A DNA stretch of 64,000 bases from Thermus brockianus (GTDB lineage: Bacteria; Deinococcota; Deinococci; Deinococcales; Thermaceae): assembly GCF_001880325.1 (NCBI RefSeq), contig NZ_CP016312.1, forward strand, positions 806,001 through 870,000, read 5' to 3'. How positions within the stretch are numbered: the first letter of the stretch is position 1; every line of letters begins with the position of its first letter. The notes under the pieces were generated by a model, which saw nothing but the letters and a program-made list of their open reading frames with translations, made no database searches and was not told where the DNA came from. Below are positions 1-20,020 of the stretch, piece by piece. The position numbers and the translations under genes are program-made.

Positions 1-533
1 CCACACCTGGGTCTTGTAGAGGTCGCCCAAGGGGTTCACCGGGGGGTGTCGTCCCCGTGCCAGGTGTAGTAGCCGAAAAGCCGCTCGGTTTTGTTGCCCG
101 TGCCCAAGGGGAGGGCCCTATAGGCCTCGGACTTATCAAAGAGGACGATCATGCGGGCCCGGGCCATGACGTTCCCCTTGCGGTGGGGGGTGAGGTCGGG
201 GGTGAGGGCGGCGTACCCCTCCACCATGGGGGTGATGTCCACCTCCTCCAGGGCCACGCCGAAGGCCCCCGCCACCAGATAGGCGTGCTCCCGGGAGAGG
301 GGGCTCGAGTCCCGGTGGGGCAGGAAGAGGGCGTGGACGTTCCCGGGCCCCAAGGCCCGCACCGCCAGGGCCAGGGTGGTGGCGGAGTCCACCCCTCCCG
401 AGACCGCCACGATGGCCTTGCTGTAGCCCCGCCAGGCGAGTTCCTCCCGGAGGAAGCGGGTGAGGAAGTCCGCCACCAGGGGCCAGTTGAGCTCCAACAC
501 CTCGTGCGCCTTGGGGGCCTCAAGGAGCTTCAT
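1..533 (-). CDS. nadE: NAD+ synthase NadE, partial and frameshifted
   Basis: ATP-dependent PP-loop ligase that converts deamido-NAD to NAD+, last step of NAD synthesis. Seen: PP-loop SGGVDS at residues 45-50, GTGNKTE at 144-150 and YYTWHGDD at 155-162, all family signatures. The frame starting at 533 stops at 36-38 after 165 codons, but the next frame beyond the C run at 41-46 reads PVNPLGDLYKTQVW, the expected continuation, and leaves the window. One extra C would restore the family sequence. The start lies 14 bp inside the upstream nitrilase-like gene, so the two are probably translationally coupled and form a two-polypeptide glutamine-dependent NAD synthetase. The 3' part lies outside the window. 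Confidence 0.88.
41..46 (-). other. Homopolymer frameshift site in nadE
   Basis: Run of six C on the minus strand (G on plus). The nadE reading frame needs seven here to continue into the conserved NPLGDLYKTQV block. It is either a sequencing/assembly deletion or a real mutation. Confidence 0.8.
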
Positions 534-1395
534 GCCGCCTCCCGTTCAGGACCCGGGTGAGGTCTTGGAGGAGAAGGGGAAGGCCCGCCTCGAGGTCGGA
601 GAGGAGGGGGCTATCGTAGCGCACGGGGGGAATCCTGTCCCGATCCAAGGAGAAGAGAAGGGCCGCCTCCTCAAAAAGGGGGGCCTCGGCCAGGATCCGC
701 CCCTCGGGGCCCGCCACCAAGCTTCCCCCGCTCATCCCCTTTCCTCCCTCAAACCCCACCAGGCTCGCCAGGACCACGTACACCCCGTGCTCCGCCGCCA
801 CCGCCTGGGCCAGGGTGCGCCAGCGGGCCACGTTCTCCGGGCGCTCCCCTTGGAAGCCCCGGGCCGGGCTCGCCGCCGGCACGTAGATGACCTCGGCCCC
901 GTCCAAGGCGGCGATGGTGGCGGTGACGGAGTGCCAGAAGTCCTCGCAGATGAGGATGGCCGCCCGGCCGAAGCGGGTGGTAAAGGCCTCCACCCGCCTC
1001 CCCCGGGCCAGGTAACGCTCCTCGTCAAAGACCCCGTAGGTGGGGAGGAAGACCTTGCGGTGCACGTGGACCACCCGGTGGGGAAGCTCTAGGTAGGCGG
1101 CGCTATTGTAGTAGGCCCCCTCGTCCCGCTCGTAAAACCCCACCACCACGTCCAATAGCCCCTCCCACCCCACCTCCTTGTGCACCTGGGAGAGGAGCTC
1201 TAAAAGCTCAAAGCGGGTGAGGGCGAGCTCCCGCACCCCCCCTTGCAGGAAGTACCCCGTGAGGGCGGCCTCGGGCAGGACCACCACCTCGGGGGCGTGG
1301 GGCTTTAGGAGGCGCAGGGCCTCGGCCAGGCGGGCCAGGCTTTCCCGAAGCCGCCCCTTCTCCGGCCGGAACTGCACGATGGCGTGCCGGACCAC
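520..1395 (-). CDS. Nitrilase-superfamily amidohydrolase, probable glutaminase partner of NadE
   Basis: 291-residue carbon-nitrogen hydrolase. The catalytic triad is visible: E42 in VVVLPEAALTGY, K114 in HVHRKVFLPTYGVFDE, C150 in ILICEDFWH. It matches the N-terminal glutamine amidotransferase domain of glutamine-dependent NAD synthetases, here a separate gene that overlaps nadE by 14 bp. The inferred role is to release ammonia from glutamine for NadE. It lies 15 bp downstream of the GH57 gene at the tail of the lysine operon. An independent omega-amidase role is possible, but the adjacency argues for NAD synthesis. Confidence 0.85.
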   Translation of the reverse strand: MVRHAIVQFRPEKGRLRESLARLAEALRLLKPHAPEVVVLPEAALTGYFLQGGVRELALTRFELLELLSQVHKEVGWEGLLDVVVGFYERDEGAYYNSAAYLELPHRVVHVHRKVFLPTYGVFDEERYLARGRRVEAFTTRFGRAAILICEDFWHSVTATIAALDGAEVIYVPAASPARGFQGERPENVARWRTLAQAVAAEHGVYVVLASLVGFEGGKGMSGGSLVAGPEGRILAEAPLFEEAALLFSLDRDRIPPVRYDSPLLSDLEAGLPLLLQDLTRVLNGRRHEAP

Positions 1396-1410
1396 GGCCT
1401 TATCCTACCC

Positions 1411-2967
1411 CTAAAGGCCCAGGTAGAGCCTAGGGTCGGCCTCGGGAAAGGGGTTGTCCTCCTCCTCCAAAGCCTTGAGCTCCTCTGGGGAAACCCCTTG
1501 GAGGAGGCGGAAAAACCGCTCCGCATGGGCCTTATACCGCTCCTCGGCGTACTCCCGGGCCTGGCCCGTATCTATAAGGAAGGGCCAGTCGGAGGCCTCG
1601 AGGAGGAGAAGCTCCCGCATGGCCTGCTGCAGGACCTTAGGGGGCAAAACCCCCCGCCGCACCGCCTCCCGCATGGCCCCCTCCGCCCGGTACACCCGCC
1701 GCCAGTAGTCCCGGGTAGCCTCGTTGAGCCAGACCCGGTGGTCCCCCCCCCGGCCCCAGGACCCCTCGGGCAAGGCGGCGCGGAGGGCAGGCCCCTGGAC
1801 CGCCTCCTTGGCCGTCACCGCCCGCACCCCTTCCTCCCGGACGAGAAGGCGCAGGACCTCCTCCAGCCACGCCACCCCCTCGTACCACCAGTGGCCGAAA
1901 AGCTCGGCGTCGTAGGGGGCGAGGATCACCCCTTCCGGGTGCCCCTGGGCAAGCCGCCTTACCAGGCCCACGAAGTGGGCCGCATGCTCCCGCGCCTTGG
2001 CGAAGGCCGCCTCGGGGTCATAGGGGGCCTTGGCGGCGAGGTCCGCCTTGCGGTGGGTCACCCGCCAGTGGTGGAGCCCGGAAAGGGGGTCCTTGCGGTG
2101 GAACTCCCGGTATAGCCCTTCCCCGGGGTAGCCGTAATCGGCGCTCCAGACCTGCAGGGCCGTCTCCTGGTTGCGGGCGAGCACCCTAAGGCCCGACTCC
2201 AGCTCGTGGACGTACAAGGTGGCTTCCCCGCTCTCCACGGGCCCCAAGCTGGCTTCCCCGTAAGGGGCAAGGGGCTTTCCCCCTTGGACCAGGTGGGCGT
2301 CCACGAAGGTGTAGCGGATGCCCGCCCGCATCAAAAGCTCGTCCACCCCTGCCCGAATTCCCTCCGGTGGGCCCTCCACCGGGGGCTTCCAAGGCCCCCT
2401 GGGGCGGTAGGCCATCTCCGGCAGCCAAAACCCCGTGGGGTGCTGGGCGAAGTGGCGGCGGTGGGTGGCCACCCCGGTCTTGATCTGGGCCCAAAGGGCC
2501 TCGTCGTAACCCAGAAGGGGCGAGTAGCCGTGGGTGGCGTTGGAGGTGATGAGCTCCACCTGGCCCCGGTCCTGGGCCCGGCGGAAGGCGGGGAGGATCT
2601 CCCCGGAAAGGGAGTGGAAGTGGTCCAGGGTGAGCTCCCAAAACCCCACCTGGTGGCGGGCGCTTTTCTCCAATTCCGTGCCCTGGTAGCGGAGGTAGTC
2701 CCCTTGGGCCCGCTCCAAGCGGTCCTGGGCGTAGGCCCAAAAGCCTTCCCGGATGCGGGCGTCCGCCAGTTGCTCCGCCAAAATGGGCGTGATGCCCAGG
2801 GTGAAGCGGGCCTCCACCCCTTCCTGCCAAAGCCTTTCCAAGGCCCTGAGAAGGGGCAGGTAGGTTTCGGCCATGGCCTCGTAGAGGGTCTCCTCCCCAA
2901 AGGGCCACATCCCGTGGGCCCGCACGTAGGGGAGGTGGCCGTGGAGGACCAGGGCAAAGCGCGCCAT
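1411..2967 (-). CDS. GH57 1,4-alpha-glucan branching enzyme
   Basis: 518 residues; makes alpha-1,6 branches in glycogen. Residue counting puts the nucleophile at E184 (GFWLPEMAY) and the acid/base at D353 ([12 protein letters not shown]), the positions I recall for the characterised Thermus thermophilus GH57 branching enzyme. N-terminal [11 protein letters not shown] is the first GH57 conserved region (His-Pro loop). The C-terminal third, with its Trp-rich helices, is the family C domain. It starts 4 bp after the lysZ stop, so it probably shares the lysine operon transcript, a link between amino-acid and storage metabolism that is not obvious biochemically. Confidence 0.93.
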
Positions 2968-2971
2968 GGGC

Positions 2972-3781
2972 CTAGCGTACCACGGTGCCTTCCCCGGCCA
3001 GGGCGCGCCGGATGGGGTTTTCCACCCGGGCGTCGGCGAAGACCACCCGCTTCACCCCGCCCCGCACCGCCTCCACCGCCCCCATGACCTTCCGCTTCAT
3101 CCGCCCCTGGGCCAGGGCCAGGTACTCGGGGTCCTCCACCCGGTCCACGGGGATTTCCCGCACCAGGCTCCCCTCGTCCGGGTAGCGGGCGAGAAGCCCC
3201 GGCACGTTGGAGAGGTACACCAAGGCCTCCGCCTGGTAGGTGGTGGCGAGGAGGGCGGCGATCTGGTCCCCGTCCGTGTTGATGGCCTCGTTCTCGTAGC
3301 TCAGGGCGGGGGGGGTGAGCACGGGAAGGTAGCCCGCCCCCAAAAGGAGGTCCAAAAGGGCCCGGTTCACCTCTTCCACCGTGCCCGTGTAGTCCCCGCG
3401 GTGGATCTTGACTTTCCCGTCTTCCACGTACTTCACCGCGGTCTTCCTACGCCCTACGAAAAGCCTCCCGTCCAGCCCGGAAAGCCCGATGGCGTTGGCC
3501 CCTTCCCGTTGGAGGAGCTCCACCAGGCGCTTGTTCACCAGGCCGCAGTAGACCATCTCAAAGATCTCCAAGGTCCTGCGGTCCGTGAGGCGGCTCACCT
3601 GCCCCCCAGGGTGGGTGAGGAAGCGGGGCGGGTGGCCCAGGGCCTCCGCCACCTTGTTGGTCTCGCTGCTCCCTCCGTGGACCAGGATAAGCCGCACCCC
3701 CTCCCGCCAAAGGGAGGCCGCATCCTTAGCCACCGCCTCGTAGGAGATGCCCTCGGCGCCGCCCACCTTGACCACGATCAC
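2972..3781 (-). CDS. lysZ: [LysW]-aminoadipate kinase LysZ
   Basis: 269-residue amino-acid kinase (ArgB family) that phosphorylates the gamma-carboxyl of aminoadipate carried on LysW. Seen: N-terminal VVKVGG phosphate loop, HGGSSETN substrate loop, [13 protein letters not shown] nucleotide region and the C-terminal [12 protein letters not shown] helix. GTG start at 3781. The context (LysW, X and Y immediately upstream) separates it from a true acetylglutamate kinase, although dual use in arginine synthesis has been described for related enzymes in other prokaryotes. Confidence 0.93.
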
Positions 3782-3791
3782 GGCGCACCTC

Positions 3792-5664
<1,873 letters not shown>

Positions 5665-5670
5665 GGTTCA

Positions 5671-5700
5671 GAAAAGGGGGAAGGCCAGGAAGCCTTCCCC
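5671..5700 (-). terminator. Hairpin with T tract between lysW and lysX
   Basis: On the minus strand, arms GGGGAAGGC (5700-5692) and GCCTTCCCC (5685-5677) with a 6-nt loop, followed by CTTTTC. This has the form of an intrinsic terminator inside the operon. Partial termination here would give more lysW than lysX transcript. Confidence 0.6.
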
Positions 5701-5715
5701 TAGGTCCTCAGGGCC

Positions 5716-5880
5716 TCACTCGCCCCAGTCCTCCGCTTCCTCGGGGGCGGGCTCGAGGCGCAAGGGGTCTAGCCCCACCACCTCAAGTTCCGCCCCGCAG
5801 TCCTCGCAGACCACCAGCTCGCCAAGCTCGGGGTTTTCCAGGCGAATCTCCGCACCGCATTCGGGACAGGTCGCTACCAT
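5716..5880 (-). CDS. lysW: Amino-group carrier protein LysW
   Basis: 54-residue acidic zinc-ribbon protein read directly from the sequence. It has CxxC pairs C5/C8 and C25/C28, the LDPLRLEP segment and the C-terminal EDWGE, whose terminal Glu gamma-carboxyl is the known attachment point for aminoadipate. It acts as carrier and recognition handle for LysX, LysZ, LysY and the later LysJ/LysK (not in this window). Its ATG overlaps the end of the upstream LysW-like gene by 7 bp. Confidence 0.95.
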
Positions 5881-6197
5881 TCCTCGTCCTCCTCTTCCAC
5901 TTCACTCCAATCGGGAACAAAGCCAAAGCCGCACTCGGGGCACTGCACCTCCTGGCCTTGGTCCTCCTCGGACACCTCAAAGGTGTAGCCGCAACGGGGG
6001 CAGTCCACGAAGAAGCCTTCCAGGCCCTCCTCCGTCACCTCCACCTCCAAGGGGTCCAGGGAAACCACCTCCAAAAAGGCCCCGCAGGCCTCGCACTCCA
6101 GGACATCCCCCACCTCGAGGGTCTCCAAATCCTCGGCCAACACCAGGCTGGCCTCGCCGCACACCGGACAGACGATCTCTAGGTCCTCCATGTCCAA
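5874..6197 (-). CDS. LysW paralogue with two zinc ribbons
   Basis: 107 residues. The first half (C10/C13, C35/C38, then SLDPLEVE) aligns with LysW; the second half repeats the fold with C66/C69 and C86/C89. It ends EEEDEEW, so it lacks the EDWGE carrier tail with a terminal Glu. It lies 3 bp after lysU and overlaps lysW, so it is co-translated with the pathway. It cannot be an amino-group carrier in the standard way; a regulatory, chaperone or LysT/LysU-associated role is inference only. Confidence 0.85.
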
Positions 6198-6200
6198 AGT

Positions 6201-6692
6201 TTACTCCCCCGGGAAGCGCCCGTGCTTCTTGTAGTAGTCCAGAAGCGAACCCTCCTTGAGCGCCTCCAGGAGAAAAGGGGGCGGGGGGCGGAGGGAAAAG
6301 GTTTGGTCCCCCTTCCGCAAAACCCCCCTTTCCAGGTCCAGGTCCACCTCGTCGCCGTCCTCTAGGGCATCCACCACCTCCTCCGCTTCAAAGGGGATAA
6401 TCCCCAGGTTCACCAGGTTGCGGAAGAAGATGCGGGCGTAGCTCTTGGCGATGACCGCCCGTATCCCGAGGCGCTTCAGGGCCTCGGGGGCGTACTCCCG
6501 GCTGGAGCCAAGCCCGGCGTTCCGGCCGAAAACCAGGATATCCCCAGGGCGCACCTCCTGGGCGAACTCGGGCCTCAGGTGGGCGAAGGCGAACCGGTGA
6601 AAGCGGTCCTCCCCCACCATGAAGGGGGCGTACTTCCCGGGAAGGATATCGTCCGTGTTGATCTGGTCGCCGAACTTCCACACCCTAGGCAT
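6201..6692 (-). CDS. lysU: Homoaconitase small subunit LysU
   Basis: 163-residue swivel-domain subunit of the heterodimeric homoaconitase that isomerises homocitrate to homoisocitrate. Seen: FGDQINTDDILPGKY near the N terminus, the substrate-specificity loop and the conserved GRNAGLGSSREYAPEAL loop carrying active-site Ser/Arg. Overlaps lysT by 8 bp, giving coupled translation and 1:1 subunits. It resembles LeuD, but the context assigns it to lysine. Confidence 0.93.
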   Translation of the reverse strand: MPRVWKFGDQINTDDILPGKYAPFMVGEDRFHRFAFAHLRPEFAQEVRPGDILVFGRNAGLGSSREYAPEALKRLGIRAVIAKSYARIFFRNLVNLGIIPFEAEEVVDALEDGDEVDLDLERGVLRKGDQTFSLRPPPPFLLEALKEGSLLDYYKKHGRFPGE

Positions 6693-7935
6693 GGGCCACC
6701 TCCAGCTCCTCCGGGGTGGTGAGGTACCCGGCCACGGCGCTCGCCGCCGCCACCCGGGGGCTTGCCAGGTAGATTTCGGCGTCGGGAGCCCCCATGCGCC
6801 CGCGGAAGTTGCGGTTGGAGGTGGAGACGCACACCTCCCCGGGGGCCAGGACCCCCATGTGCCGCCCCATGCAGGGGCCGCACCCCGGGGTGCCGATGGT
6901 GGCCCCCGCCTCCAGGAGGGTGAGGAGGGTGCCGTCCTTGGCCGCCTCCTCCAGGACCTGGCTTGAGGCGGGCACCACGAGGAGCCGCACCCAAGGGGCC
7001 ACCTTCCTGCCCCTTAGCACCTCCGCCGCCGCCCTCAGGTCCTCGAGGCGCCCGTTGGTGCAGGTGCCGATGAAGACCTGGTCCACCCGCTTCCCCTTCA
7101 CCGCCGCCACCTCGTGCACGTTGTCCACGTAGAAGGGCACGGAAACCCTGGGGGTAAGGGTGGAAAGGTCAATCTCCACCTCCCGGGCGTACTGGGCGTC
7201 GGGGTCGGGGTAGAGCCATTCGGGCACCCAGTACATCTCCAGTATCTCCCCGCTCGGCACCACAAGCCCCGCCTTGGCCCCCGCCTCCACCGTGAGGTTG
7301 GCCAGGGTCATGCGCTCCCCCCGGGAGAGAGCCTCCGCCCCGTCCAACAGGTGGATCTCCACCGCCATGTAGGTGGCGCCTTCGGCGGTGAGGAGCCGGA
7401 CCATCTCCAGGGCGGCGTCCTTGGCCGTGACCCCTTTGGGAAGCCTTCCCCGGAAGACCACCTTGACGCTCTCCGGCACCCTTAGCCAGGTGCGGCCGCT
7501 CGCCGCCGCCAGGGCGATGTCCGTGGCCCCCATGCCCGTGCCGAAGGCCCCCACGGCCCCGTAGGTGGTGGAGTGGGAGTCCGAGCCCACCACAATCCAG
7601 CCAGGCTGGGCCAGGCCCTCCTCCATGAGGACCTGGTGGCACACCCCCCGGCCCACGTCAAAGACCCGGATACCGTGCTGCCTGCCCCATTCCCGGATCT
7701 CCTTCTGCGCCTTGGCCACCTCCAGGTTGGCCGCCGGGGCCACGTGGTCAATGACGATGGAAACCCGCTCGGGGTAGCGGGGGGTGGCTTCCAGGTACGC
7801 TAGGCGCTTAAAGAAGCTTCCGGCGATGGAGTCCACCACCATCACCTGGTCCACCTCCACCACCACCAGTTCCCCCGCCCGCACCTGGCGCCCTGCCTTG
7901 TGGGAGAGGATCTTTTCCGCTAGGGTTAAGCCCAT
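6685..7935 (-). CDS. lysT: Homoaconitase large subunit LysT
   Basis: 416-residue 4Fe-4S aconitase-superfamily subunit. The cluster cysteines are visible in FIGTCTNGRLEDLR and TPGCGPCMGRHMG, with the substrate motifs GSDSHSTTYGA and TSNRNFRGRMGA. It partners with LysU. The start at 7935 faces the divergent hicB promoter; hcs lies 450 bp upstream on the same strand with the antisense hicBA between, so a transcript from the hcs promoter would have to cross hicBA. Confidence 0.94.
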   Translation of the reverse strand: MGLTLAEKILSHKAGRQVRAGELVVVEVDQVMVVDSIAGSFFKRLAYLEATPRYPERVSIVIDHVAPAANLEVAKAQKEIREWGRQHGIRVFDVGRGVCHQVLMEEGLAQPGWIVVGSDSHSTTYGAVGAFGTGMGATDIALAAASGRTWLRVPESVKVVFRGRLPKGVTAKDAALEMVRLLTAEGATYMAVEIHLLDGAEALSRGERMTLANLTVEAGAKAGLVVPSGEILEMYWVPEWLYPDPDAQYAREVEIDLSTLTPRVSVPFYVDNVHEVAAVKGKRVDQVFIGTCTNGRLEDLRAAAEVLRGRKVAPWVRLLVVPASSQVLEEAAKDGTLLTLLEAGATIGTPGCGPCMGRHMGVLAPGEVCVSTSNRNFRGRMGAPDAEIYLASPRVAAASAVAGYLTTPEELEVAHA

Positions 7936-7945
7936 TTTGCCCTCC

Positions 7946-7951
7946 TATACT
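7946..7951 (+). promoter_or_regulatory. -10 element of hicBA
   Basis: TATACT six nt upstream of the hicB ATG, the spacing of a leaderless Thermus transcript. It gives hicBA a promoter independent of the lysine operon and supports the start at 7958 over upstream in-frame starts. No convincing -35. Confidence 0.55.
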
Positions 7952-7957
7952 AAAGCC

Positions 7958-8185
7958 ATGGGACGGTATTGGATTCGCGTGTACCCAGACCCAGACGAAC
8001 CTGGCGTCTGGCTCGCCGAGGTGCCCGCCGTGCCCGGGGTGCGCTCCGATGGGGATACACGCGAGGAGGCCATCCGCAATGCCCAAGAAGCCCTCGAGGC
8101 CATGCTGGAAGCCCTAAAGGCCAAGGGCCTGCCCATCCCCGAACCCCAGGAAGAGTGGGTGGAAGCGGAGATCCATGCCGCCTAG
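7958..8185 (+). CDS. hicB: HicB-family antitoxin
   Basis: 75 residues of partial RNase H-like HicB fold: [44 protein letters not shown] is the family pattern. No separate DNA-binding domain is visible at the C terminus. It overlaps hicA by 11 bp, so the pair is coupled. Located on the opposite strand within the lysine operon, between lysT and hcs. The start was chosen from the -10 box six nt upstream. Confidence 0.85.
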
Positions 8186-8381
8186 GCCCGAAGAGGTGGT
8201 GCGGAAGCTCAAAAAGCTGGGCCTCGAGGAGGTAGGCGGTAAGGGAAGCGACCGGGTTCTCCTCCACCCCGACGGACGCCGTACCGTGGTTCCCTTCCAC
8301 CGCAAGGAGCTCAAGCGAGGCACCTTTCTCGGCATCCTCAAAGATGTAGGCCTCACCGAAGAGGAGTTCCGCCGCCTCTAA
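8175..8381 (+). CDS. hicA: HicA-family toxin, atypical active site
   Basis: 68 residues, dsRBD-like mRNA interferase: [34 protein letters not shown]. The catalytic His usually found in a GSH/GGH context upstream of HPDGR is here GSD, with no adjacent His, so RNase activity may be weak or lost. It ends 2 bp before the convergent hcs stop. I recall that Thermus thermophilus HB8 carries a HicA of the same type (TTHA1913) near its lysine genes, so the location may be ancestral; this was not checked. Confidence 0.82.
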
Positions 8382-8383
8382 GC

Positions 8384-9623
<1,240 letters not shown>

Positions 9624-9635
9624 CTTGCCTGTAAG

Positions 9636-9662
9636 GGTATACGAAACCCCGCCTTTTGTCAA
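9636..9662 (-). promoter_or_regulatory. Promoter of the lysine operon
   Basis: TTGACA (9662-9657) and TATACC (9641-9636) separated by 15 nt. The -35 overlaps the uppS stop codon (TGA at 9661-9659). It fires directly into the leader peptide. Confidence 0.7.
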
Positions 9663-10450
9663 CGCCCGAAGCGCCGCTCCCGGGCCTGGTAGCTCCTTAG
9701 GGCGCGCAGGAAGTCAATCTTGCGAAATTCGGGCCAAAGCACGTCGGCGAAGTAGAACTCGGAATAGGCGGACTGCCAGAGCAAAAACCCCGAAAGCCTT
9801 ATCTCCCCCGAGGTGCGGATGATGAAGTCGGGGTCGGGAAGCCCGGCGGTGTAAAGCCTTTTGGCGATCTCCTCGGGGGTGAGGGAGGCCGCCACCTGGC
9901 CCGGGCCAAGCCCTTTTTCCTCGGCCTCGAGGAGAAGCCTTTTCACCGCATCCACAATCTCCTCCCGCCCCCCATAGCCCATGGCGATGTTGAGCACCAT
10001 GCCCTGGTGGTGGCGGGTGCGCTCCTCCAGGCGCTCAAGGGCCCTTAGCACCTCCTCGGAAAACCCCTCCCGCCGCCCGATAACCCGCACCTGCACCTGG
10101 TGCTCCAGGATCCGGTGGTCCTCCGCCATCCTTTCCGCCTCCCGCACGAAGAGGCGCATGAGCTCCTCCACCTCCTCAGGGGGACGACGGAAGTTATCCG
10201 TGGAGAAGACCCAAACGGTAACCGTCTTTATGCCCATCTCCAGGCACCACTCCAGGACCTCGTAGGCCTTGTGCACCCCGAACTCGTGCCCCTTGGTGGG
10301 GGAAAGCCCAAGGGCCTTGGCGTAGCGGCGGTTCCCGTCCAGGATGAGGCCCAGGTGCCGGGGCATGGGCCCCCCCTTCACCTCCTTGAGGAGGCGGCGC
10401 TCGTAAAACCAGTAGAGGGGGCGGGTGAGGGAGAGGAGGCGGCGGAGCAT
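9659..10450 (-). CDS. uppS: Isoprenyl (undecaprenyl) diphosphate synthase
   Basis: 263-residue cis-prenyltransferase that makes the lipid carrier for peptidoglycan and other glycan synthesis. LGLILDGNRRYA (catalytic Asp), VTVWVFSTDNFRRP, and the C-terminal RTSGEIRLSGFLLWQSAYSEFYF signature are present. The hydrophobic N terminus suggests membrane association. The stop overlaps the lysine-operon -35 box. Confidence 0.93.
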   Translation of the reverse strand: MLRRLLSLTRPLYWFYERRLLKEVKGGPMPRHLGLILDGNRRYAKALGLSPTKGHEFGVHKAYEVLEWCLEMGIKTVTVWVFSTDNFRRPPEEVEELMRLFVREAERMAEDHRILEHQVQVRVIGRREGFSEEVLRALERLEERTRHHQGMVLNIAMGYGGREEIVDAVKRLLLEAEEKGLGPGQVAASLTPEEIAKRLYTAGLPDPDFIIRTSGEIRLSGFLLWQSAYSEFYFADVLWPEFRKIDFLRALRSYQARERRFGR

Positions 10451-10492
10451 ACCTTCCCCACCCTACGGGGGAAGGATGAGAAAGGGAAGGCC

Positions 10493-11035
10493 CTACTTGG
10501 CGTGGTCCTTGTAGGGCTCGCCCCGCAGGTCGGAGATGAGATGCACCGCCACGTAGGCCCCGTCCCCGGCGCTCACGATGGCGTGGCCCGGCACCTTGCC
10601 CCGGGCCACGCCGGCGGCGTACACCCGGGGGTAGCTGGTGCGCCCTCCCTCGTCGGTATCAATGAAGGTGCCCTTGCGGCTAAGGCCCAGGAGGGAGGGC
10701 AGGGTGGGGTCCTTGTGGGTGCAAAGGAGGAGCCTTTCCGCCTCCACCACCCCCTCTTCCGTTTCCACCTCAAACACCCCGCCCAGGTCCCTCACGCCCT
10801 TCACCACCCCGCGGCGCACCTCGGCCCCGTAGCGCTCGGCGTGGGCCTTTAAGCGGGCAAGGAGCTCCTCTCCCGAAGGCTCGTCCAGAAGCCCAGGATA
10901 GTTGGGCACCTGGCTCACCTGGAGGACCTGGGAACGCCCGCCATCCAACACCAAGGTCTTCAGGCCCGCCCGGGCCAGGAAAAGGGCCGCAGAAAGGCCC
11001 GAAGGTCCACCGCCTACCACCAGCACGTCCCACAT
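10493..11035 (-). CDS. Mini FAD-dependent oxidoreductase, thioredoxin-reductase-like
   Basis: 180 residues: only the FAD-binding half of the TrxR-type fold. Dinucleotide motif VVGGGPSGLSAA (8-17), middle VPNYPGL, and the C-terminal VYAAGVARGKVPGHAIVSAGDGAYVAVHLI FAD segment. The NADPH domain and the CxxC disulfide are absent, so it cannot be a thioredoxin reductase itself. Similar short proteins exist in Thermus; the electron donor is unknown. A TATACT -10 (11051-11046) sits 10 nt upstream, divergent from the PASTA gene. Confidence 0.78.
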   Translation of the reverse strand: MWDVLVVGGGPSGLSAALFLARAGLKTLVLDGGRSQVLQVSQVPNYPGLLDEPSGEELLARLKAHAERYGAEVRRGVVKGVRDLGGVFEVETEEGVVEAERLLLCTHKDPTLPSLLGLSRKGTFIDTDEGGRTSYPRVYAAGVARGKVPGHAIVSAGDGAYVAVHLISDLRGEPYKDHAK

Positions 11036-11045
11036 AGCCCTTTAG

Positions 11046-11081
11046 AGTATACGGGGCGGGGGCAAGGGCCAGGGGTATAAT
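11046..11081. promoter_or_regulatory. Divergent -10 boxes for the flavoprotein and PASTA genes
   Basis: TATACT on minus (11051-11046), 10 nt before the flavoprotein ATG, and TATAAT on plus (11076-11081), 9 nt before the PASTA-protein ATG. Both spacings fit leaderless or near-leaderless mRNAs. Confidence 0.55.
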
Positions 11082-11090
11082 CGGCGGCGC

Positions 11091-12418
11091 ATGGTCTTGG
11101 ACGACCGCTACCCGGTGCTGGAAACCTTGGAAAGCCGGGAGGGCATCACCCTCTACCGGGTGGAAGGCGGGTTCGTCTTCTTCTTTGACGTGAAGACCCC
11201 CGAGGACAAGGAGCGCTTTTACCGCTACCGGGCGGCCCTGAAACGCCTCATGGAGCTTGGGCTCCTCGAGGCCCACGTCTCCGCCAAACCCGGCCGCCAC
11301 TACGCCTTCTTCCCGGAAAAGACCCTTTCCCGCAAGGCCCCGCCCAGGAAAGCCCTGGAAGCCCTGGCCCCCTTGGGCTTCGGCCGGGAGCACCTGGCCA
11401 TGGCGGAGGAGGGGGTGGCCTACCTCGCCCCCTGGCCCCTGAGCGGGCGGGCCCCTTCCCTCAAGCCCAGGTCCCGGCCCCGCCTCCTGGGGGTGGCCCC
11501 CGGGGTCCTCCTCCTCGTCTTGGGGGTTTTCCTCCTCTCCCAGGGCCTCTACCGCTACTTCAACCCCCCTGAGTACACCGTGCCCGACCTGGTGGGCAAA
11601 ACCGCCCGGGAAGCCTTTCTCCTCCTGAAGGACACCGGGCTAACGCTGGCGGTGGAAGAGGGGAACGACCCCACCAAGCCCAAGGAAGTGGTCCTGGCCC
11701 AAGACCCCCCTCCCGGCACCCGCCTAAGGGCTGGCCGGACGGTGCGCCTCACCCTCAACCAAGCCCGGCTAAACCCCGTGCCCGGGCTCTCGGGCCTTAG
11801 GCGGGAAGAGGCGGAGGCCAGGCTTAGGGCGCTTGGCTTCCGGGTGGAGGGGGTGGCGGAGCTCCCAAGCCCGGAGCCCTTGGGTACGGTCCTCGCCACC
11901 TTCCCCCCGGCGGGCACCCCCTTGGCCCCCGGGGGCGGGGTGCGGCTCCTCCTTTCCCAAGGGGCCCCCTCTGGGCCCACCTGGCCCTTGCCCCGGCTGG
12001 TGGGGCTTTCCCGCAAGGAGGCCCTCTTCCTCCTCAACGCCGCCGGGCTCAAGGTGGAGGTGGAGGAGGTACCCTCCGGCGCCCCCCAGGACACCGTGAT
12101 CGCCCAGGAGCCCGCCCCCGGCACCCCCATGCCCGAAGGGAGCGGGGTGCGCCTCCGGGTGGCGGTCCAGGGGGAGGTGCTCCTGCCCCCCGCCCCTCCC
12201 CCGGGGCGGAAAGGAGCGTTTCCCTGGCCCTAGACCTTCCGCCGGAGGCGGAGGGGCGGGAGGTGCGCCTGGTCCTTTTGGACCAAAGCGGGGAACGGGT
12301 GGTCTACGAGGGGATGGGCCAAGCGGGGCTGAGGCTGGAAGGTACCTACCCCGTGCAAGGGGAGGCCCGTTTCCGGCTCTACCTGGACGGGGTGCTCTTC
12401 CAGGAGTGGGTGCCGTGA
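11091..12418 (+). CDS. Membrane PASTA-domain protein with kinase-like N-terminal remnant (frameshifted)
   Basis: About 442 residues once one base is restored. N-terminal ~140 cytoplasmic residues begin like a Ser/Thr kinase N-lobe ([19 protein letters not shown]) but carry no catalytic HRD/DFG lobe. A transmembrane helix follows (~145-165, [14 protein letters not shown]), then three PASTA repeats (~172-233, 237-301, 307-368), each with a PDL/PGL/PRL-V/SG start and a PxPGT motif, so it is probably extracytoplasmic and binds peptidoglycan. The frame from 11091 stops at 12231-12233, but the next frame continues as [19 protein letters not shown] to TGA at 12416-12418 with normal codon usage; one G or C is missing near 12190-12212. 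The stop overlaps the yraN GTG start. Confidence 0.78.
12190..12212 (+). other. Frameshift site in the PASTA gene
   Basis: C and G runs between codons for PPAPPP and the shifted continuation GAERSVSL. One additional G (or C) joins the two coding frames; the downstream frame stays open for a further ~70 codons. Confidence 0.75.
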
Positions 12419-12744
12419 AGGGGAAATGGGCGGAGGAGCTGGCCTTAGCCCACCTCCTGCAAAAGGGGTACCGGCTCCTTGGGCGAAACCGCCGCACCCC
12501 CTTTGGGGAGGTGGACCTCCTCATGGAAAAGGACGGGGTCTACGTGGTGGTGGAGGTGAAGCAACGGCGCACGGACCGCTTCGGCACCCCCCTCGAGGCC
12601 ATCACCCCCAGGAAGCTTTCCCGCCTCCTCCAAAGCGCCCGCTACCTTCTGGGCCGGGACGACCTCCCCGTGCGCCTGGAGGCGGTCCTGGTCCACGGGG
12701 ACCCCAAGGGCTTCCGCCTGGAGCACCGGGTGTTGGAGGTCTAG
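12415..12744 (+). CDS. yraN: YraN/UPF0102-family nuclease-fold protein
   Basis: 109 residues with the restriction-endonuclease-like core of the UPF0102 family: [40 protein letters not shown] (PD-ExK-type E..D..ExK). The GTG start at 12415 overlaps the TGA of the PASTA gene (GTGA); an upstream in-frame GTG at 12406 is less likely. Function unknown, possibly DNA processing. Confidence 0.85.
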
Positions 12745-12785
12745 ACCCCTTTTGTCCCCCTTGCCCTTTGGGTAAGCTTACGGGC

Positions 12786-14573
12786 GTGTTCAGGAACCTG
12801 CGGGCGTACCTGGAGGCCCTGGAAGCGCGGGGTGAGCTCAAGCGCATCCGGGTCCCGGTGAGCGCCGAGCTGGAGATCACCGAGATCGCCGACCGGATGG
12901 TGAAAGGAGGGGGCCCCGCCCTCCTCTTTGAGCGGGTCTTGGGCAAGGACTTCCCCGTGGCCATCGGCCTCTTCGGCACCCGGGAGCGCACGGCCTTTGC
13001 CCTGGGGGTGGAGGACCTGGACGAGCTGGCCCAAAAGGTGGAGGCCCTCCTGGCCCTGAACCCGGGCAAGGGGGGGCTTTCCGCCCTCATGGGGCTTCTC
13101 CCCAAGCTTCCCCTCCTCAAGGGCTTTTTCCCCAGGCGGGTGCGCCGCGCCCCGGTGCAGGAGGTGGTCCATAAGGGCGAGGCGGTGGACCTAAGCCGCC
13201 TCCCCATCCTCACGTGCTGGCCCCTGGACGGCGGGCCCTTCCTCACCCTGCCCCTCGTCATCACCAAGGACCCGGAGACGGGGGAAATCAACCTCGGCAT
13301 GTACCGCATGCAGGTGCTGGACCAAAGGAGCACCGCCATGCACTGGCAACTCCACAAGGTGGGCCGGCGCCACCTGGAGAAGGCCAAAAAACTGGGGAAA
13401 AAGCTGGAGGTGGCCGTGGCCCTTGGGGGGGATCCCGTCCTCACCTACGCCGCCACCGCCCCCCTCCCCCCCTTGCCGGGGGTGAGCGAGTTCCACCTGG
13501 CGGGCTTCCTCCGGGGAGCCCCTCTGGAGCTCGCCCGGGGGGTCACGGTGGACCTGCCGGTGCCGGCGGAGGCGGAGTTCGTCCTCGAGGGCTACATTGA
13601 CCCCGAAGAGCCCCTGGTGGAAGAGGGCCCCTTTGGCGACCACACGGGCTTCTACACCCCCGTGGACCTCTACCCCCGCTTCCACGTCACCGCCCTCACC
13701 CACCGCAAAGGGGCCATCTACCCCGCCACCATCGTGGGGGTACCCCCCATGGAGGACGCCTACCTGATCGAAGCCACGGAAAGGCTCTTCCTCCCCGCCC
13801 TGCGCCTCGTCCTGCCCGAGGTGGTGGACTACCACATGCCCCCCGAGGGGGTGGCCCACAACTGGGTGAACGTGAGCCTAAGGAAGGAGTACCCGGGCCA
13901 GGCCTACAAGGTGGCCTACGGGATGCTGGGCCTTGGGCAGATGATGTTCGCCAAGGTCATCGTGGCGGTGGACGGGGAGGTGCCCGTGAAGCCGGGCTTC
14001 GCTGCCCTCTTGGAGGCCCTCAAGCACGCCCTCCCCGGGCGGGACACCCTCCTCCTCCGGGGCCCCGTGGACGTCCTGGACCACAGCGCCCGCGCCTTCG
14101 CCTTCGGGGGGAAGCTCTTCCTAGACGGCACGCGCAAGCTTCCCGAAGAGGGAGGGGAAGTGCCCTTCACCCCCAAGGCCCACACCGCCCTCCCCGAGGA
14201 CCCGGAGGCCCTGGCCCAACGGCAGTGGCCCGGGCTTTGGGGGGTCACCTTGGAGAAGCGGCGGCCCCACCAGGCCTGGGAGGTGGCGGAAAGGCTCTTA
14301 AAGACGCCCCAAAGCGCCGGCATCCGCCTCCTCCTCCTCGCGGACGCCGACACCGCCTTGACCCCAGCGGAGCTCCTTTGGGCCGTGCTCAACAACATTG
14401 ACCCCGAGCGGGACGCCCGGGTGATGCCCGGGGCAGAAGGCCCCGTCTTGGTCCTGGACGGCACCCGGAAGCTCCCCGAAGAGGGCTTCCAGCGGGTCTG
14501 GCCCGAGCGGATCCGCATGGACCCCAAGGTCAAGGCCCTGGTGGAGGCCCGCTGGGAGGAGTACGGGTTTTAG
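12786..14573 (+). CDS. UbiD-family prenylated-FMN decarboxylase
   Basis: 595 residues. Begins at GTG 12786 (VFRNLRAYLEALEARGELKRI), the conserved UbiD N terminus; longer in-frame extensions upstream are not conserved-looking. Contains EINLGMYRMQV, EGPFGDHTGFYTP (catalytic E-D region) and LDGTRKLPEEG twice in the C-terminal half. Likely decarboxylates an aromatic acid in menaquinone (futalosine-route) synthesis or another quinone-like step; the substrate cannot be read from sequence. Ends convergent with the HD-GYP gene, overlapping 4 bp. Confidence 0.88.
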   Translation: MFRNLRAYLEALEARGELKRIRVPVSAELEITEIADRMVKGGGPALLFERVLGKDFPVAIGLFGTRERTAFALGVEDLDELAQKVEALLALNPGKGGLSALMGLLPKLPLLKGFFPRRVRRAPVQEVVHKGEAVDLSRLPILTCWPLDGGPFLTLPLVITKDPETGEINLGMYRMQVLDQRSTAMHWQLHKVGRRHLEKAKKLGKKLEVAVALGGDPVLTYAATAPLPPLPGVSEFHLAGFLRGAPLELARGVTVDLPVPAEAEFVLEGYIDPEEPLVEEGPFGDHTGFYTPVDLYPRFHVTALTHRKGAIYPATIVGVPPMEDAYLIEATERLFLPALRLVLPEVVDYHMPPEGVAHNWVNVSLRKEYPGQAYKVAYGMLGLGQMMFAKVIVAVDGEVPVKPGFAALLEALKHALPGRDTLLLRGPVDVLDHSARAFAFGGKLFLDGTRKLPEEGGEVPFTPKAHTALPEDPEALAQRQWPGLWGVTLEKRRPHQAWEVAERLLKTPQSAGIRLLLLADADTALTPAELLWAVLNNIDPERDARVMPGAEGPVLVLDGTRKLPEEGFQRVWPERIRMDPKVKALVEARWEEYGF

Positions 14574-15514
14574 CGGCGCAGAACGCGGTTTCGCAAAAGG
14601 GCGCTCCTAAAGGCCCGCACCACTTCCTGGGAAAGCCGGCCCTGGTCCGCCTCCTCCCTCAGGACCTCCAAGGCCTCCTCCGGTTTAGCGGGGTGGCGGT
14701 AGGTGCGCCTGCTGGTAAGGGCATCGTAGATGTCGGCGGCGGCCACCGCCTGGGCCAAGGGGGGCACCTCGGTGATCCCGTCGGGGTAGCCGGAGCCGTC
14801 CAGCTTCTCGTGGTGCCAGCGCACGTAAGGCCGGAGGCGGGGATGGGCCCTGAGGGGCTTAAGGATCTCATCCCCCTTCACCGGGTGCTCCCGGATAAGA
14901 CGCCACTCCGCCTCGGTGAGGGTGTAGCCGCCCTGCAGGATGTGGTCGGGGATGGCGATCTTCCCCACATCGTGCAGCAAGGCCCCCAGGTAGAGGTCCC
15001 TCAGCACCTCCTCCCGGACCCCCAGCTCCTCCGCCGTCCAAAGGGCGTAGCGGGCCACCCTTTCCCCATGGCCGGCGGTGTAGGTGTCCTTCATCTCCAC
15101 CGCCCGCATGAGGGCGAGGAGGGTGCGTTCCAAGTCCTCCAAGCGCTCCTGCAGGCGCCGCCTCTCCAGATGCCCTTTCACCCGCAGGCGGAGCTCCGCC
15201 AGGTCCACGGGGCGGTTCAGGAAGTCGTCCGCCCCCGCCTCAATCCCCTTCAGGCGCACCTCCCGCTCCCCATCGGCGGTGAGGAGGATGACGGGAAGAA
15301 GGGGGTCCAGGGCCTTGACCCGCCGCGTGAGCTCCAGCCCGTCCATCACGGGCATGTGAAGGTCGGTGAGGACCGCGTGGGGAAAGCCGTCCTTGAAGAG
15401 GTCCAGGGCTTCTTGCCCGTTCCTGGCCTCCACCACCTCGGCCTCCAAGGGGGCCAGGGCCCGCATGAGGAGGCGGCGCTGTAAGGGGTCGTCGTCCACC
15501 ACCATGAGGCGCAT
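14570..15514 (-). CDS. Response regulator with HD-GYP cyclic-di-GMP phosphodiesterase domain
   Basis: 314 residues. REC domain 1-115 with DDD at 7-9 and phosphoacceptor D51 (VLTDLHMP); the usual switch Lys before Pro is Arg (LNRPVD, R101). HD-GYP domain ~130-300 with HDVGK at 181-185 and HHEKLDGSGYP at 234-244, so the GYP motif is complete and phosphodiesterase activity is expected. Last gene of the DUF4388-GTPase-CZB-roadblock operon (9 bp after roadblock), suggesting a c-di-GMP output of that switch. Confidence 0.92.
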   Translation of the reverse strand: MRLMVVDDDPLQRRLLMRALAPLEAEVVEARNGQEALDLFKDGFPHAVLTDLHMPVMDGLELTRRVKALDPLLPVILLTADGEREVRLKGIEAGADDFLNRPVDLAELRLRVKGHLERRRLQERLEDLERTLLALMRAVEMKDTYTAGHGERVARYALWTAEELGVREEVLRDLYLGALLHDVGKIAIPDHILQGGYTLTEAEWRLIREHPVKGDEILKPLRAHPRLRPYVRWHHEKLDGSGYPDGITEVPPLAQAVAAADIYDALTSRRTYRHPAKPEEALEVLREEADQGRLSQEVVRAFRSALLRNRVLRR

Positions 15515-15523
15515 GGCTCCCCC

Positions 15524-15886
15524 TCAGAGAAGGTCCTTGAGGTGGCGGGCGGCCTCCCGGGCCTCGAGGTGAACCAGACCCAGGTTGGCCCCCGTGGGAA
15601 GCGCCAGCGCCAGCACCCCCTTCTCCCCCGCCTCATAGACCACGAAGTAGCCGTTTTGGCCCCGGATCACCGTCTCCTGAAACTCCCCCAGGCGCAAGGT
15701 GGTGGCGATGCGCTTGCCAAGCCCCAAGGAAGTGGCGGCCATGGCGGCGATCCTGGCCGCTTCCCCTTCGGGAAAGTCGTGCACCATGGGCAGCCCATCC
15801 GCCGAGGCCACCATCACGCCGGAAACCTCGGGAACCGCCTGCCTCAGACTGCGAATGAGGGTCTGAATCTCTTCTTGCCTGGTCAT
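15524..15886 (-). CDS. Roadblock/LC7-domain protein (MglB-like)
   Basis: 120-residue roadblock fold: VSGVMVASADGLPMV, IAAMAATSLGLGKRIA, YFVVYEAGEKGVLALALP. In bacteria such proteins act as GAPs or scaffolds for MglA/Ras-like GTPases. The neighbouring GTPase gene (16221-16733) is the probable partner. Confidence 0.88.
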   Translation of the reverse strand: MTRQEEIQTLIRSLRQAVPEVSGVMVASADGLPMVHDFPEGEAARIAAMAATSLGLGKRIATTLRLGEFQETVIRGQNGYFVVYEAGEKGVLALALPTGANLGLVHLEAREAARHLKDLL

Positions 15887-15900
15887 CCTCGTACCTCCCT

Positions 15901-16224
15901 TTACTGACCTAGGGTCAAGAGCAGGTGCTCTATCCTGCCAAAAAGCCGGTAAGCCTCGTTCATCCTCTCCCTGGCCTCAGCTTCCCGCCCCTCCTTCTTC
16001 AGGCTCACCGCCTGGGCGGTGAGGGCGTGGAAGGCTTCGTGCAGAGGGCCGATCTCCCGGAAAGCGGGAAGGTGGCCATAGACCTTCTCCCCTTCCCCGT
16101 GGTACCAGCGGCCCAAGGAACACTCCGTGGGCGGAGTGAGGGGCGGTTCCTCCCCTCCTTCCAAGAACTTCTCCACGTTTTCCAGATACCGCAGGTGCGC
16201 AAGGACGATGGCTTCCAGCATCAT
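15901..16224 (-). CDS. CZB (chemoreceptor zinc-binding) domain protein
   Basis: 107 residues. Standalone CZB domain: H10, the CSLGRWYHGEG signature with C35, and H62/H66, the expected His-Cys-His-His zinc set. CZB domains usually sit at the C terminus of chemoreceptors or in diguanylate cyclases and sense zinc or hypochlorite. Here it is a separate gene whose ATG overlaps the GTPase stop (ATGA), so it is a candidate sensor input to the GTPase/roadblock pair. Confidence 0.87.
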   Translation of the reverse strand: MMLEAIVLAHLRYLENVEKFLEGGEEPPLTPPTECSLGRWYHGEGEKVYGHLPAFREIGPLHEAFHALTAQAVSLKKEGREAEARERMNEAYRLFGRIEHLLLTLGQ

Positions 16225-16733
16225 TCCCCTCCTGTGGCTAGCTCCACAAGGCGAGCAAGCGCCCGAAAGGCCTCCTCCCGCTTCCTGGCGTCCAGCCCCA
16301 TCACCCGCTCCTCCGGCAGGCGCAGGTAGAGGGCCACCTCCCCCGGGGTCCAGGCCCGGCCCAGGTCCAGGCGCGTTACCCCCACCAGGTAGGGAACGGG
16401 GTGCCGCGAGAGAAAATAGTCCAGCATCCTGCGCGCCTCGGGGAGATGGTGGGGCCGGTCCCCCGCCACGAGGAAGAGGAGGCCCAAAGCGCCCTCGGCC
16501 AACACGTCCCACATGAAGTCAAAGCGCTCCTGCCCCGGAACGCCGAAGAGGTGGACCCGGTAAGGCCCCACCGCCAGGGTCCCGAAGTCCAGGGCCACGG
16601 TGGTGGTTTCCTTGCCCAGGTCCTCGCTGGCCTTGGCCTCCGTGGTCAGGGCCTCCTCCCCCAGGAGGCTTTTGGCCAAGGCGGTCTTCCCCGCCCCCAC
16701 GGGCCCGGCCACCAGCACCTTCAGCGGCTCCAT
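16221..16733 (-). CDS. Ras-like small GTPase (MglA/SRPRB-like)
   Basis: 170 residues. G1 GPVGAGKT, G3-like FGVPGQERFDFMWDVL (Gly in place of the classical DxxG Asp), and TRLD in the place of NKxD. The start at 16733 (MEPLKVLVAG) is preferred; a GTG two codons upstream is possible. Overlaps DUF4388 at its start and the CZB gene at its end. The altered G3 suggests slow intrinsic hydrolysis, as in bacterial MglA-type switches that need a roadblock partner. Confidence 0.87.
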   Translation of the reverse strand: MEPLKVLVAGPVGAGKTALAKSLLGEEALTTEAKASEDLGKETTTVALDFGTLAVGPYRVHLFGVPGQERFDFMWDVLAEGALGLLFLVAGDRPHHLPEARRMLDYFLSRHPVPYLVGVTRLDLGRAWTPGEVALYLRLPEERVMGLDARKREEAFRALARLVELATGGE

Positions 16734-17335
16734 AGCCACCTAAGCTGGGCCAGGAGGCCCCGGGCCAAGGGATGGGCCCTGGCCTTCCTCTCCAGCCGCT
16801 TCACCGCCCCCAAAAGCTGAAGCCGGTAAAGGTAGAGGCGCACCTGGTCCAGGGGCAGGTGGAGCTTTTCCGCCAGCTCCTTGGCCGAGGCCCCCCGCTT
16901 AAGGTAGGGCAGGGCGAGGCGGAAGAAGTCCCGGAAGCGAGGGTCCTCGGGGGAGCTTCCCGCCGCCTGGAAGACCGCCTCGGGGTGGGGGAGGTAGGGG
17001 CGGTAGCGCTCCAGCTCGTCCTGCAGGGTCATCAGGCCCAGGAGGACCTTCTGCACGGGCAGGTTCAGGCGCACCCCGTGCTTGGGCCTCACCCCCGGAA
17101 GGAACTCAAAGCTTCCCTGCCGGGCCAAGAGGAGGGCGTGGAGGACAGCCTTGGCCGCCATGGGGTCCAGGGGCTCGCCCCGCTGCTCCAAGGAGCGGAT
17201 GAAACCCGGCTCCAGGTGGATGGTGGTGGGAGGAATTTCCTTCAGGTTCCAAAGCTCCAACGCCCCCTCCTTCTGGGAAAGCATCTGCAAGAGCTCCTCC
17301 AGGGGCAGGGAATCCAGGCTTCCGAATAGGGCCAT
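16721..17335 (-). CDS. DUF4388-domain protein with C-terminal winged-helix-like region
   Basis: 204 residues. N-terminal DUF4388 (PatA N-terminal type: FGSLDSLPLEELLQMLSQKEGALELW) ~1-100, then ~135-195 with KELAEKLHLPLDQVRLYLYRLQLLGAV, which reads like a winged helix. First gene of the signalling operon, preceded by SD GGGAGG. DUF4388 proteins commonly occur next to roadblock/GTPase and response-regulator genes. Specific role unknown. Confidence 0.85.
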   Translation of the reverse strand: MALFGSLDSLPLEELLQMLSQKEGALELWNLKEIPPTTIHLEPGFIRSLEQRGEPLDPMAAKAVLHALLLARQGSFEFLPGVRPKHGVRLNLPVQKVLLGLMTLQDELERYRPYLPHPEAVFQAAGSSPEDPRFRDFFRLALPYLKRGASAKELAEKLHLPLDQVRLYLYRLQLLGAVKRLERKARAHPLARGLLAQLRWLWSR

Positions 17336-17391
17336 AACCGCCTCCCACCCTTAGCCTGGCAGCTCCCTGTGAAAAGGGTTTGAAAAGGCCG

Positions 17392-17397
17392 TATAAT
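17392..17397 (+). promoter_or_regulatory. -10 box of trmB
   Basis: TATAAT eight nt upstream of the GTG start at 17406, matching a leaderless transcript. The -35 is weak (GTGAAA at 17369-17374). Confidence 0.6.
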
Positions 17398-17405
17398 GCC
17401 CCCTC

Positions 17406-18341
17406 GTGCTGGTGCGCCCCGCCCTCCTTCCCGCTTGGCCCCCCTCCCCCCGGGACCTCTTTGGCCGGGAAGGCCCCCTGGTGCTGGAGATCGGCTTCGG
17501 GGACGGGCGCTTCACCCTGGAGCTGGCCCAGGCCCACCCCGACTGGCTCATCCTGGGGGCCGAGGTTTCGGCGGCGAGCGTCCTACGGGCCTACAAGAAG
17601 ATGCGCCGCCACGGGGTGGAAAACGTGCGCCTTTACCACGGGGAAGGCCCCTTTGCCCTGCGGAACCTGGTGCCGGCGGGAGGCCTCGAGGCGGTCATCG
17701 TGAACTTCCCCGACCCCTGGCCCAAGAAGCGGCACCAGGAAAGGCGGCTTCTCCAGGAGGGCTTTTTCCGCAAACTTTCCACCCGGCTCAGGGAAGGAGG
17801 AAGCCTCCTCCTCACCACGGACCACGAGGGCTACTTCCGCTTCGCCCTGGAGGAGGCGGCCAAAACGGGGCTTTACCGGGTGGAGGTGAAGCCGCCCCCG
17901 GAGGCCCACCTGAGGACCAAGTACGCCCTCAAGTGGCGGGAGGCCGGGCGCCCCTTCTTCCACGCCGTCTTCACCAAGGTGGGGGAGGACCCCCACCCCT
18001 GGCCCCCCCTAAGGAGGTACGCCGTGGCCCACGCCCTACTGGAAGGAAACCTACCCGAAGCCCTGGAGCTAGGGAAAACCCCCGTGCCCCTCTCGGGCGG
18101 GGTGGCGGTGTTTTTGGAAACCGCCAAGGGGGAGAAGGGGTTTTACGTTCTCACCCACGTGGAGGAGGAGGACCTCACCCAAGACCTCCTCCTGGAGGTG
18201 CGGCCAAGCGCCCACGGGGTCTACGCCGGGGTGAGCCGCTTCGGGAGTCCCCTCATCACCGAGGGGGTGAAGGGGGCGGTGCGGGCTTTGGTGGAACGCT
18301 TGGAAGCCTTGGGCCTTAGGGTGGTCCAGGACCACACCTAG
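17406..18341 (+). CDS. trmB: tRNA (guanine-N7-)-methyltransferase with C-terminal extension
   Basis: 311 residues. SAM-binding [15 protein letters not shown], conserved [15 protein letters not shown] catalytic/tRNA motif and [14 protein letters not shown] identify TrmB, which makes m7G46. Residues ~210-311 are an extra C-terminal domain beyond the usual ~210-240, as also described for some thermophile TrmBs. GTG start supported by TATAAT eight nt upstream. Confidence 0.93.
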
Positions 18342-18360
18342 GCCCCGGTAAGATAAACCC

Positions 18361-19431: not shown

Positions 19432-19457
19432 GGCCCCCGGGCTTCCCCGGGGGCCTT
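19430..19457. terminator. Bidirectional terminator hairpin
   Basis: Perfect 12-bp stem AAGGCCCCCGGG / CCCGGGGGCCTT with loop CTTC between the convergent aminotransferase and hsp20 genes. It has no long T tract. Confidence 0.7.
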
Positions 19458-19471
19458 AGCCCTTTAGGCCC

Positions 19472-19936: not shown

Positions 19937-19956
19937 ACTCATCACCTCCACTTACA

Positions 19957-19985
19957 CTTATATCACTTGCGCCTTCCTTTGTCAA
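19957..19985 (-). promoter_or_regulatory. Promoter of hsp20
   Basis: TTGACA (19985-19980), 17-nt spacer, TATAAG (19962-19957): a near-consensus housekeeping promoter followed by an SD-led mRNA, unlike most leaderless genes here. Confidence 0.8.
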
Positions 19986-20020
19986 GTATCCTCATCCAAA
20001 GCGCCTACCCCTGCGCCCCC

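Follow-up and report, generated by a model that had tools for sequence, protein, structure and literature searches.

An antisense slot for hicBA toxin–antitoxin alleles in the lysine operon of Thermus and other Thermaceae

The lysine operon of Thermus brockianus raises the question of what a toxin–antitoxin (TA) pair is doing on the opposite strand between two of its genes. In the window (the whole 64,000-nucleotide stretch of DNA analysed), the first operon gene, hcs (homocitrate synthase; 8384–9514, minus strand; TIGR02146, 543 bits against a cut-off of 413.55), is separated from the next, lysT (homoaconitase large subunit; 6685–7935, minus strand; TIGR02086 and hacA_fam, above cut-offs), by two plus-strand genes: hicB (7958–8185; 75 aa from an ATG start; PF15919, 35.2 bits, cut-off 27) and hicA (8175–8381; 68 aa with the loop KGSDR; PF07927, 57.5 bits, cut-off 27). 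A preliminary description of this DNA had placed a hicBA pair antisense between hcs and lysT, and the coordinates, strands and Pfam matches bear this out. The fit is tight: hicB shares its last 11 nt with hicA, the hicA stop codon is 2 nt from that of hcs, 22 nt lie between the start codons of hicB and lysT, and a −10 hexamer for hicB (TATACT, 7946–7951, plus strand) has one base in common with the lysT ribosome-binding site (AGGAGG, 7941–7946, minus strand).

The pair resembles the class 2 modules described by Gerdes 2024 (PMC10865869), in which hicB comes first, the genes overlap, HicB is small and without a DNA-binding domain, and HicA has a dsRBD fold. A domain search of the 75 residues of window HicB returned PF15919 and a UPF0150 match below its cut-off and nothing else, with no DNA-binding domain, and hicA matches PDB 1whz over its full length (E 1e-22); unlike the class 2 modules, however, the window HicA has no catalytic His. 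The slot copy is the only HicA match in the whole genome. Neither HicA nor HicB of the window matched a PADLOC defence family up to E 0.1, and no Rfam match exceeded gathering scores in window positions 1–20000. Gene order and domains mark this as a class 2 pair, and low pairwise dN/dS together with recurrence across Thermaceae, both set out below, indicate that the arrangement is not due to chance.

Upstream of hcs, the operon carries the signals expected of an attenuated transcript. The hcs promoter (TTGACA-15-TATACC, or 17-TACCCT; 9636–9662, minus strand) has a TTGACA/TA-type equivalent at the corresponding position in all 25 genomes read, with slight variation in the second hexamer and the spacing. 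A Lys/Arg-rich leader peptide of 14 residues (9579–9623, minus strand) follows; a short leader ORF 5' of hcs is found in all 25 genomes, and the C-terminus of its product is KKLGRRG(V/L)G in all but G009, which has KKLRRGGAG. A G+C hairpin with a T-run after the leader ORF was seen by eye in each of the 25, and that of the window (9537–9556, minus strand) was found by a terminator scan (leader fold z-score −4.50). Leader-peptide attenuation of hcs has reportedly been published for T. thermophilus, and the window too has a leader peptide and terminator 5' of hcs; that work is said to concern the hcs promoter and not hicBA. Elsewhere in the operon, a 107-aa protein encoded between lysU and lysW (window 5874–6197) has LysW-like zinc ribbons and scores below the LysW equivalog cut-off. 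In T. parvatiensis RL, hcs is split in two frames near residue 236 (L058/L120), perhaps by sequencing error, and lysJ is likewise split.

The preliminary description held that a transcript from the hcs promoter must cross hicBA to reach lysT, so that lysine-pathway transcription could repress hicBA or hicBA transcription could interfere with lysT; a strong lysT promoter combined with termination before hicBA would speak against this. A terminator scan gave no candidate site in the window slot or in that of one locus with the second allele type (type B, below); in G049, where the slot is about 215 nt longer, there is a weak terminator-like site on the operon strand between hcs and hicA. A generic promoter scan of the window slot gave no promoter, a silence that carries little weight since the same scan misses the hcs promoter, and a stricter scan was discarded because it failed its own positive controls. 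The relaxed scan used instead recovered the hcs promoter at each of 24 loci and returned 11 lysT-strand promoter-like matches in the slots of 26 loci, against 8.6 by chance. In two Thermus genomes with empty slots only 15 and 11 nt separate hcs from lysT, so lysT is probably transcribed from upstream. With no slot terminator, near-chance lysT promoter matches and these short empty sites, transcription from hcs across hicBA to lysT is likely. The earlier interpretation is partly supported: its anatomical part stands, co-transcription across the slot is predicted from sequence, and repression of hicBA by lysine transcription, or the reverse, would be a possible consequence. No terminator-like site appeared in the window slot, and the 26-locus scan gave no convincing lysT promoter.

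A different reading of this junction is that lysT has its own promoter over the hicB start, the two units forming an ordinary divergent pair under a shared regulator such as TTHB099, with read-through from hcs being unimportant. TTHB099 binds the TTHA1911/1912 junction of T. thermophilus with a KD of 65.6 nM (PMC7662524), a weak TACCCT or TATCCT is present 20–21 nt 5' of the lysT ATG in 9 of the 26 loci, and the terminator-like site of G049 would also suit such an arrangement. These hexamers, however, are the reverse complement of the sequence that precedes the hicB ATG and are missing in the window, and the total of lysT-strand matches is the near-chance figure given above. BPROM gave no promoter for TTHA1911, in a study whose authors caution about E. 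coli models (PMC7662524), and the 11–15 nt between hcs and lysT at empty sites also argue against a separate lysT promoter. We regard this reading as unlikely.

A start signal is recognisable for hicBA itself. The preliminary description had credited the pair with its own −10, and the TATACT of the window, 6 nt 5' of the hicB ATG, is conserved as TATACT or TATAAT in 22 of the 23 Thermus copies that are either proximal to hcs or alone in the slot (G012 left out; G014 is the exception), with no good −35 seen in the window slot. Because the hexamer is so close to the ATG, the hicBA mRNA is probably leaderless, beginning at or next to the start codon. Opposite-strand genes within an operon, with a promoter of their own seen only as a conserved −10, fit the anatomy of a noncontiguous operon. 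In the examples from S. aureus (menE-menC-MW1733-ytkD-MW1731) and the prophage ith/tha genes, as presented in PMC7154746 and PMC11087260, an antisense gene with its own promoter likewise lies inside a same-strand operon; the window differs from them in having a TA pair as the antisense unit, one spread across a family and swappable, for which co-transcription and any reciprocal control would be predictions.

The same place has been encountered in T. thermophilus. By locus order, the divergent region between TTHA1911 and TTHA1912-1913 of strain HB8 in PMC7662524 corresponds to the window slot, TTHA1911 being a subunit of lysT type and TTHA1912-1913 the operon next to it; in that paper TTHA1912 and TTHA1913 are hypothetical proteins, and its main text does not use the word "toxin". 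TTHA1913 is shown as HicA by Gerdes 2024 (PMC10865869). Since TTHA1912-1913 adjoins a lysT-type gene, and 67 of 68 aligned residues of 1WHZ are identical to slot HicA of G006, G016 and G026, the lysine-operon slot is the apparent source of the T. thermophilus HicA structure 1WHZ (TTHA1913). The antisense position in the lysine operon and allele swapping do not feature in the first third of the results and other passages of Gerdes 2024. Among the papers listed on hicBA, Thermus or Meiothermus, lysine and noncontiguous operons, no title or abstract opening describes the arrangement, and no mapping of Thermus transcription starts was recognisable by title.

Comparison of the interval across Thermus strains, the check proposed in the preliminary description, showed a shared slot with differing alleles and with empty, remnant and tandem states. 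Of 27 Thermus genomes, 24 have an intact or broken hicBA in the antisense slot. As judged by reading, 19 of these copies are intact, the window copy is intact apart from its Asp mutation, and those of G003, G012, G014 and G015 are broken or altered, the G012 slot being divided between two contigs. A gap of 2 nt separates the stop codons of hicA and hcs in 23 of the 24 genomes; in G014 the gap is 11 nt. Slots are empty in G009 and G019, and G021 has a 113-nt hcs–lysT interval with a hicA remnant that is type-A-like by eye. Three genomes (G001, G002 and G023) carry tandems of two cassettes of different type, divided by a duplicated hcs end of about 70–100 nt with similar junctions, and the lysT-adjoining copy is broken in all three. 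The occurrence of the slot across the family and the exchange of its alleles go beyond what the window alone could reveal.

In Thermaceae genera besides Thermus, hicA is again found head-to-head with lysT. We found lysT in 23 such genomes and examined 21, excluding G044 and G046, where it lies at a contig edge; ten (G027, G028, G029, G030, G038, G039, G040, G042, G047 and G049) have hicBA or a broken form of it in the slot. The remaining 11 comprise two with short remnants (G033, and G045 by eye), seven with only 25–56 nt and two with about 880 nt of other sequence. This longer content in some Thermaceae includes, on the same strand as the operon, a dapF/phzF-like gene (L157 337–1359), which also occurs at L080 3906–4727 (both named by reading); L161 and L163 are grouped with these by interval length. 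The synthase gene that precedes the slot outside Thermus is about 31% identical to hcs, and for three of these synthases TIGR02146 is the best model, below its cut-off. In L152–L171 the homocitrate-synthase-like gene is an apparent non-orthologous replacement beside a retained slot. Outside the family, lysT was present in 28 searched genomes and its upstream side was examined in 20; one, G057 (L080), has the pair, 2.7 kb from hcs. An insertion confined to Thermus is ruled out by G057 and by the lysT-linked hicBA of other Thermaceae genera. The tight fit is not universal, since about 0.9 kb separates the G038 pair from lysT and that of G057 is distant from hcs. In all 35 occupied slots hicBA runs antisense to lysT; because these slots share descent they are not independent events, and the uniform orientation may result from descent rather than selection.

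Slot copies fall into two allele families, A (the window, G001, G004, G005 and G022) and B, each of which occurs in more than one genus. Relative to the window, other A copies are 84–87% identical in HicB and 87–91% in HicA, and the aligned B copies 44–53% and 54–69% respectively. Between the window and T. brockianus YIM 77927 (L063) the flanks are 94.7% identical over 9,654 positions and the slot (7936–8381) 61.2%, and in 100-nt bins the slot gives 58–73% and the flanks 80–100%. A tree of hcs and lysT from 24 genomes requires five A/B changes for five type-A rows among 21 rows, and a single type-A clade on this flank tree is rejected (p-AU 1.5e-29). On that tree, which is built on operon genes that may themselves have recombined, type A sits on scattered branches. 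The hicB and hicA gene trees, with 68–75 columns, leave many forks without resolution. Two chimeras were found, G014, in which hicB begins as A and continues as B, and G027, with an A-type hicB and a B-type hicA. These comparisons indicate replacement of A by B alleles and the reverse, with the operon genes on either side left in place, and some of the switches could have come from loss of one copy in an A/B tandem. As for a phage or plasmid origin, tblastn with the window (type-A) HicA alone as query gave no matches at E 1e-5 among 50,697 records of phages and 72,556 of plasmids.

The pairwise rates point to purifying selection on both genes: dN/dS among type-A copies (five genomes, 10 pairs for each gene) is 0.06–0.16 for hicB and 0.01–0.07 for hicA, and the type-B medians are 0.16 for hicB (87 of 91 pairs) and 0.11 for hicA (89 of 91 pairs), the dropped pairs having small or undefined dS. 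The window toxin itself departs from its relatives. The HicA catalytic loop has His in 32 of 34 slot sequences (read by eye in G015 and G030; the count leaves out G012, G021 and the tandem copies next to lysT), Asp only in the window (KGSDR), and the His is missing in G027; in the lysT-proximal tandem copy of G002 this position is Gln. In Burkholderia pseudomallei HicA, H24A abolishes toxicity (PMC3969222). With Asp in place of the catalytic His, the window toxin is probably dead; the pair would be class 2 by descent and probably not an active toxin module, and a strong toxin effect in this strain is disfavoured. A sequencing error in the Asp codon is unlikely though possible, the genome of T. 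brockianus GE-1 having a reported quality of QV50. It could be proposed on these grounds that the window hicBA is a decaying, functionless TA remnant, as would agree with the remnants, stops and other damage in G003, G012, G014, G021, G027, G029, G030, G033, G042 and G045 (the last by eye). Both window frames are nevertheless open, the hicB −10 is retained, and dN/dS between the window genes and other type-A genes is 0.03–0.13, and we consider general decay possible but less probable than not.

Thermus has hicBA at other sites. Seven of the 27 Thermus genomes have a second, different hicBA beside lysK and co-directional with it (L204 464–3079, from T. parvatiensis; also L196, L197, L201, L205, L214 and L215), and G013 has a damaged copy; lysJ is on the other side in all six loci read, and the lysJ–lysK junction of the window genome is empty (L212). 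A third hicBA, in G018 (L193 112–2999), is co-directional between hemL-like aminotransferase and mnmE/trmE-like genes (names by reading), of which the hemL-like side alone is seen in G006 (L192). Among the modules looked at, placement at operon junctions is a habit and the antisense case an exception. The site beside an mnmE/trmE-like gene weakens the idea of a lysine-specific habit.

These sites bear on the proposal that the antisense position was selected as a regulator, with attenuator-set lysine transcription repressing hicBA by polymerase collision and dsRNA and hicBA rising when lysine is plentiful. As these HicB proteins have no DNA-binding domain, lysine transcription could serve as the controller, and how modules of this kind are controlled is posed as an open question by Gerdes (PMC10865869). 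The same antisense slot beside two only distantly related synthase genes, a slot without a terminator or a convincing lysT promoter, and the reciprocal control known in noncontiguous operons elsewhere are all in keeping with it. So are arrays of a T. thermophilus TTHB099 mutant, in which log2 changes are opposite in sign: −0.82 for lysT and −1.14 for lysU, +0.35 for hicB and +0.72 for hicA (PMC7662524). These directions fit opposed expression, whether by antisense interference or through a shared regulator; the study itself describes the shifts as small and non-significant, and binding of the shared region by TTHB099 could explain them. Moreover, 3 Thermus and 11 other examined Thermaceae genomes are without the pair or have remnants, the co-directional hicBA of other sites suggest that junction placement may be a general habit, and the window toxin looks dead. 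We regard selection for such a regulator as doubtful.

We favour, at a probability of roughly 0.7, the reading that the cassette is a class 2 hicBA whose antisense slot has a fixed place, after the homocitrate-synthase gene and before lysT, with alleles swapped via conserved flanks, an overlap of incidental or mild effect, and a probably dead toxin in the window. Thermus is naturally competent; DNA from relatives would enter and recombine through the conserved flanks, exchanging or removing the cassette. The pair would be retained as an ordinary TA module, selfish or defensive, and since the hcs stop codon adjoins it on one side and the lysT ribosome-binding site on the other, its imprecise deletion would be expected to damage lysine synthesis. 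A leaderless hicBA transcript and the attenuated hcs–lysT transcript should overlap in the manner of a noncontiguous operon, and we propose that some mutual damping of the two is likely. In the window, the His-to-Asp change probably killed the toxin, and both reading frames persist. We rank this swappable slot above a selected lysine gate, although the two are compatible.

Control of hicBA modules without a DNA-binding antitoxin has been raised as an open question (PMC10865869). It is an improbable idea that lysine-operon transcription is the missing regulator of such HicBA, coupling a TA pair to amino-acid supply and kept family-wide despite allele exchange. Slots that are empty, of type A or B, tandem, chimeric or dead in closely related thermophiles, of which many are named strains, form a natural series, which could be used to test the control of a TA module by antisense transcription of a biosynthetic operon and could show by what route TA alleles spread when no mobile element is obvious.
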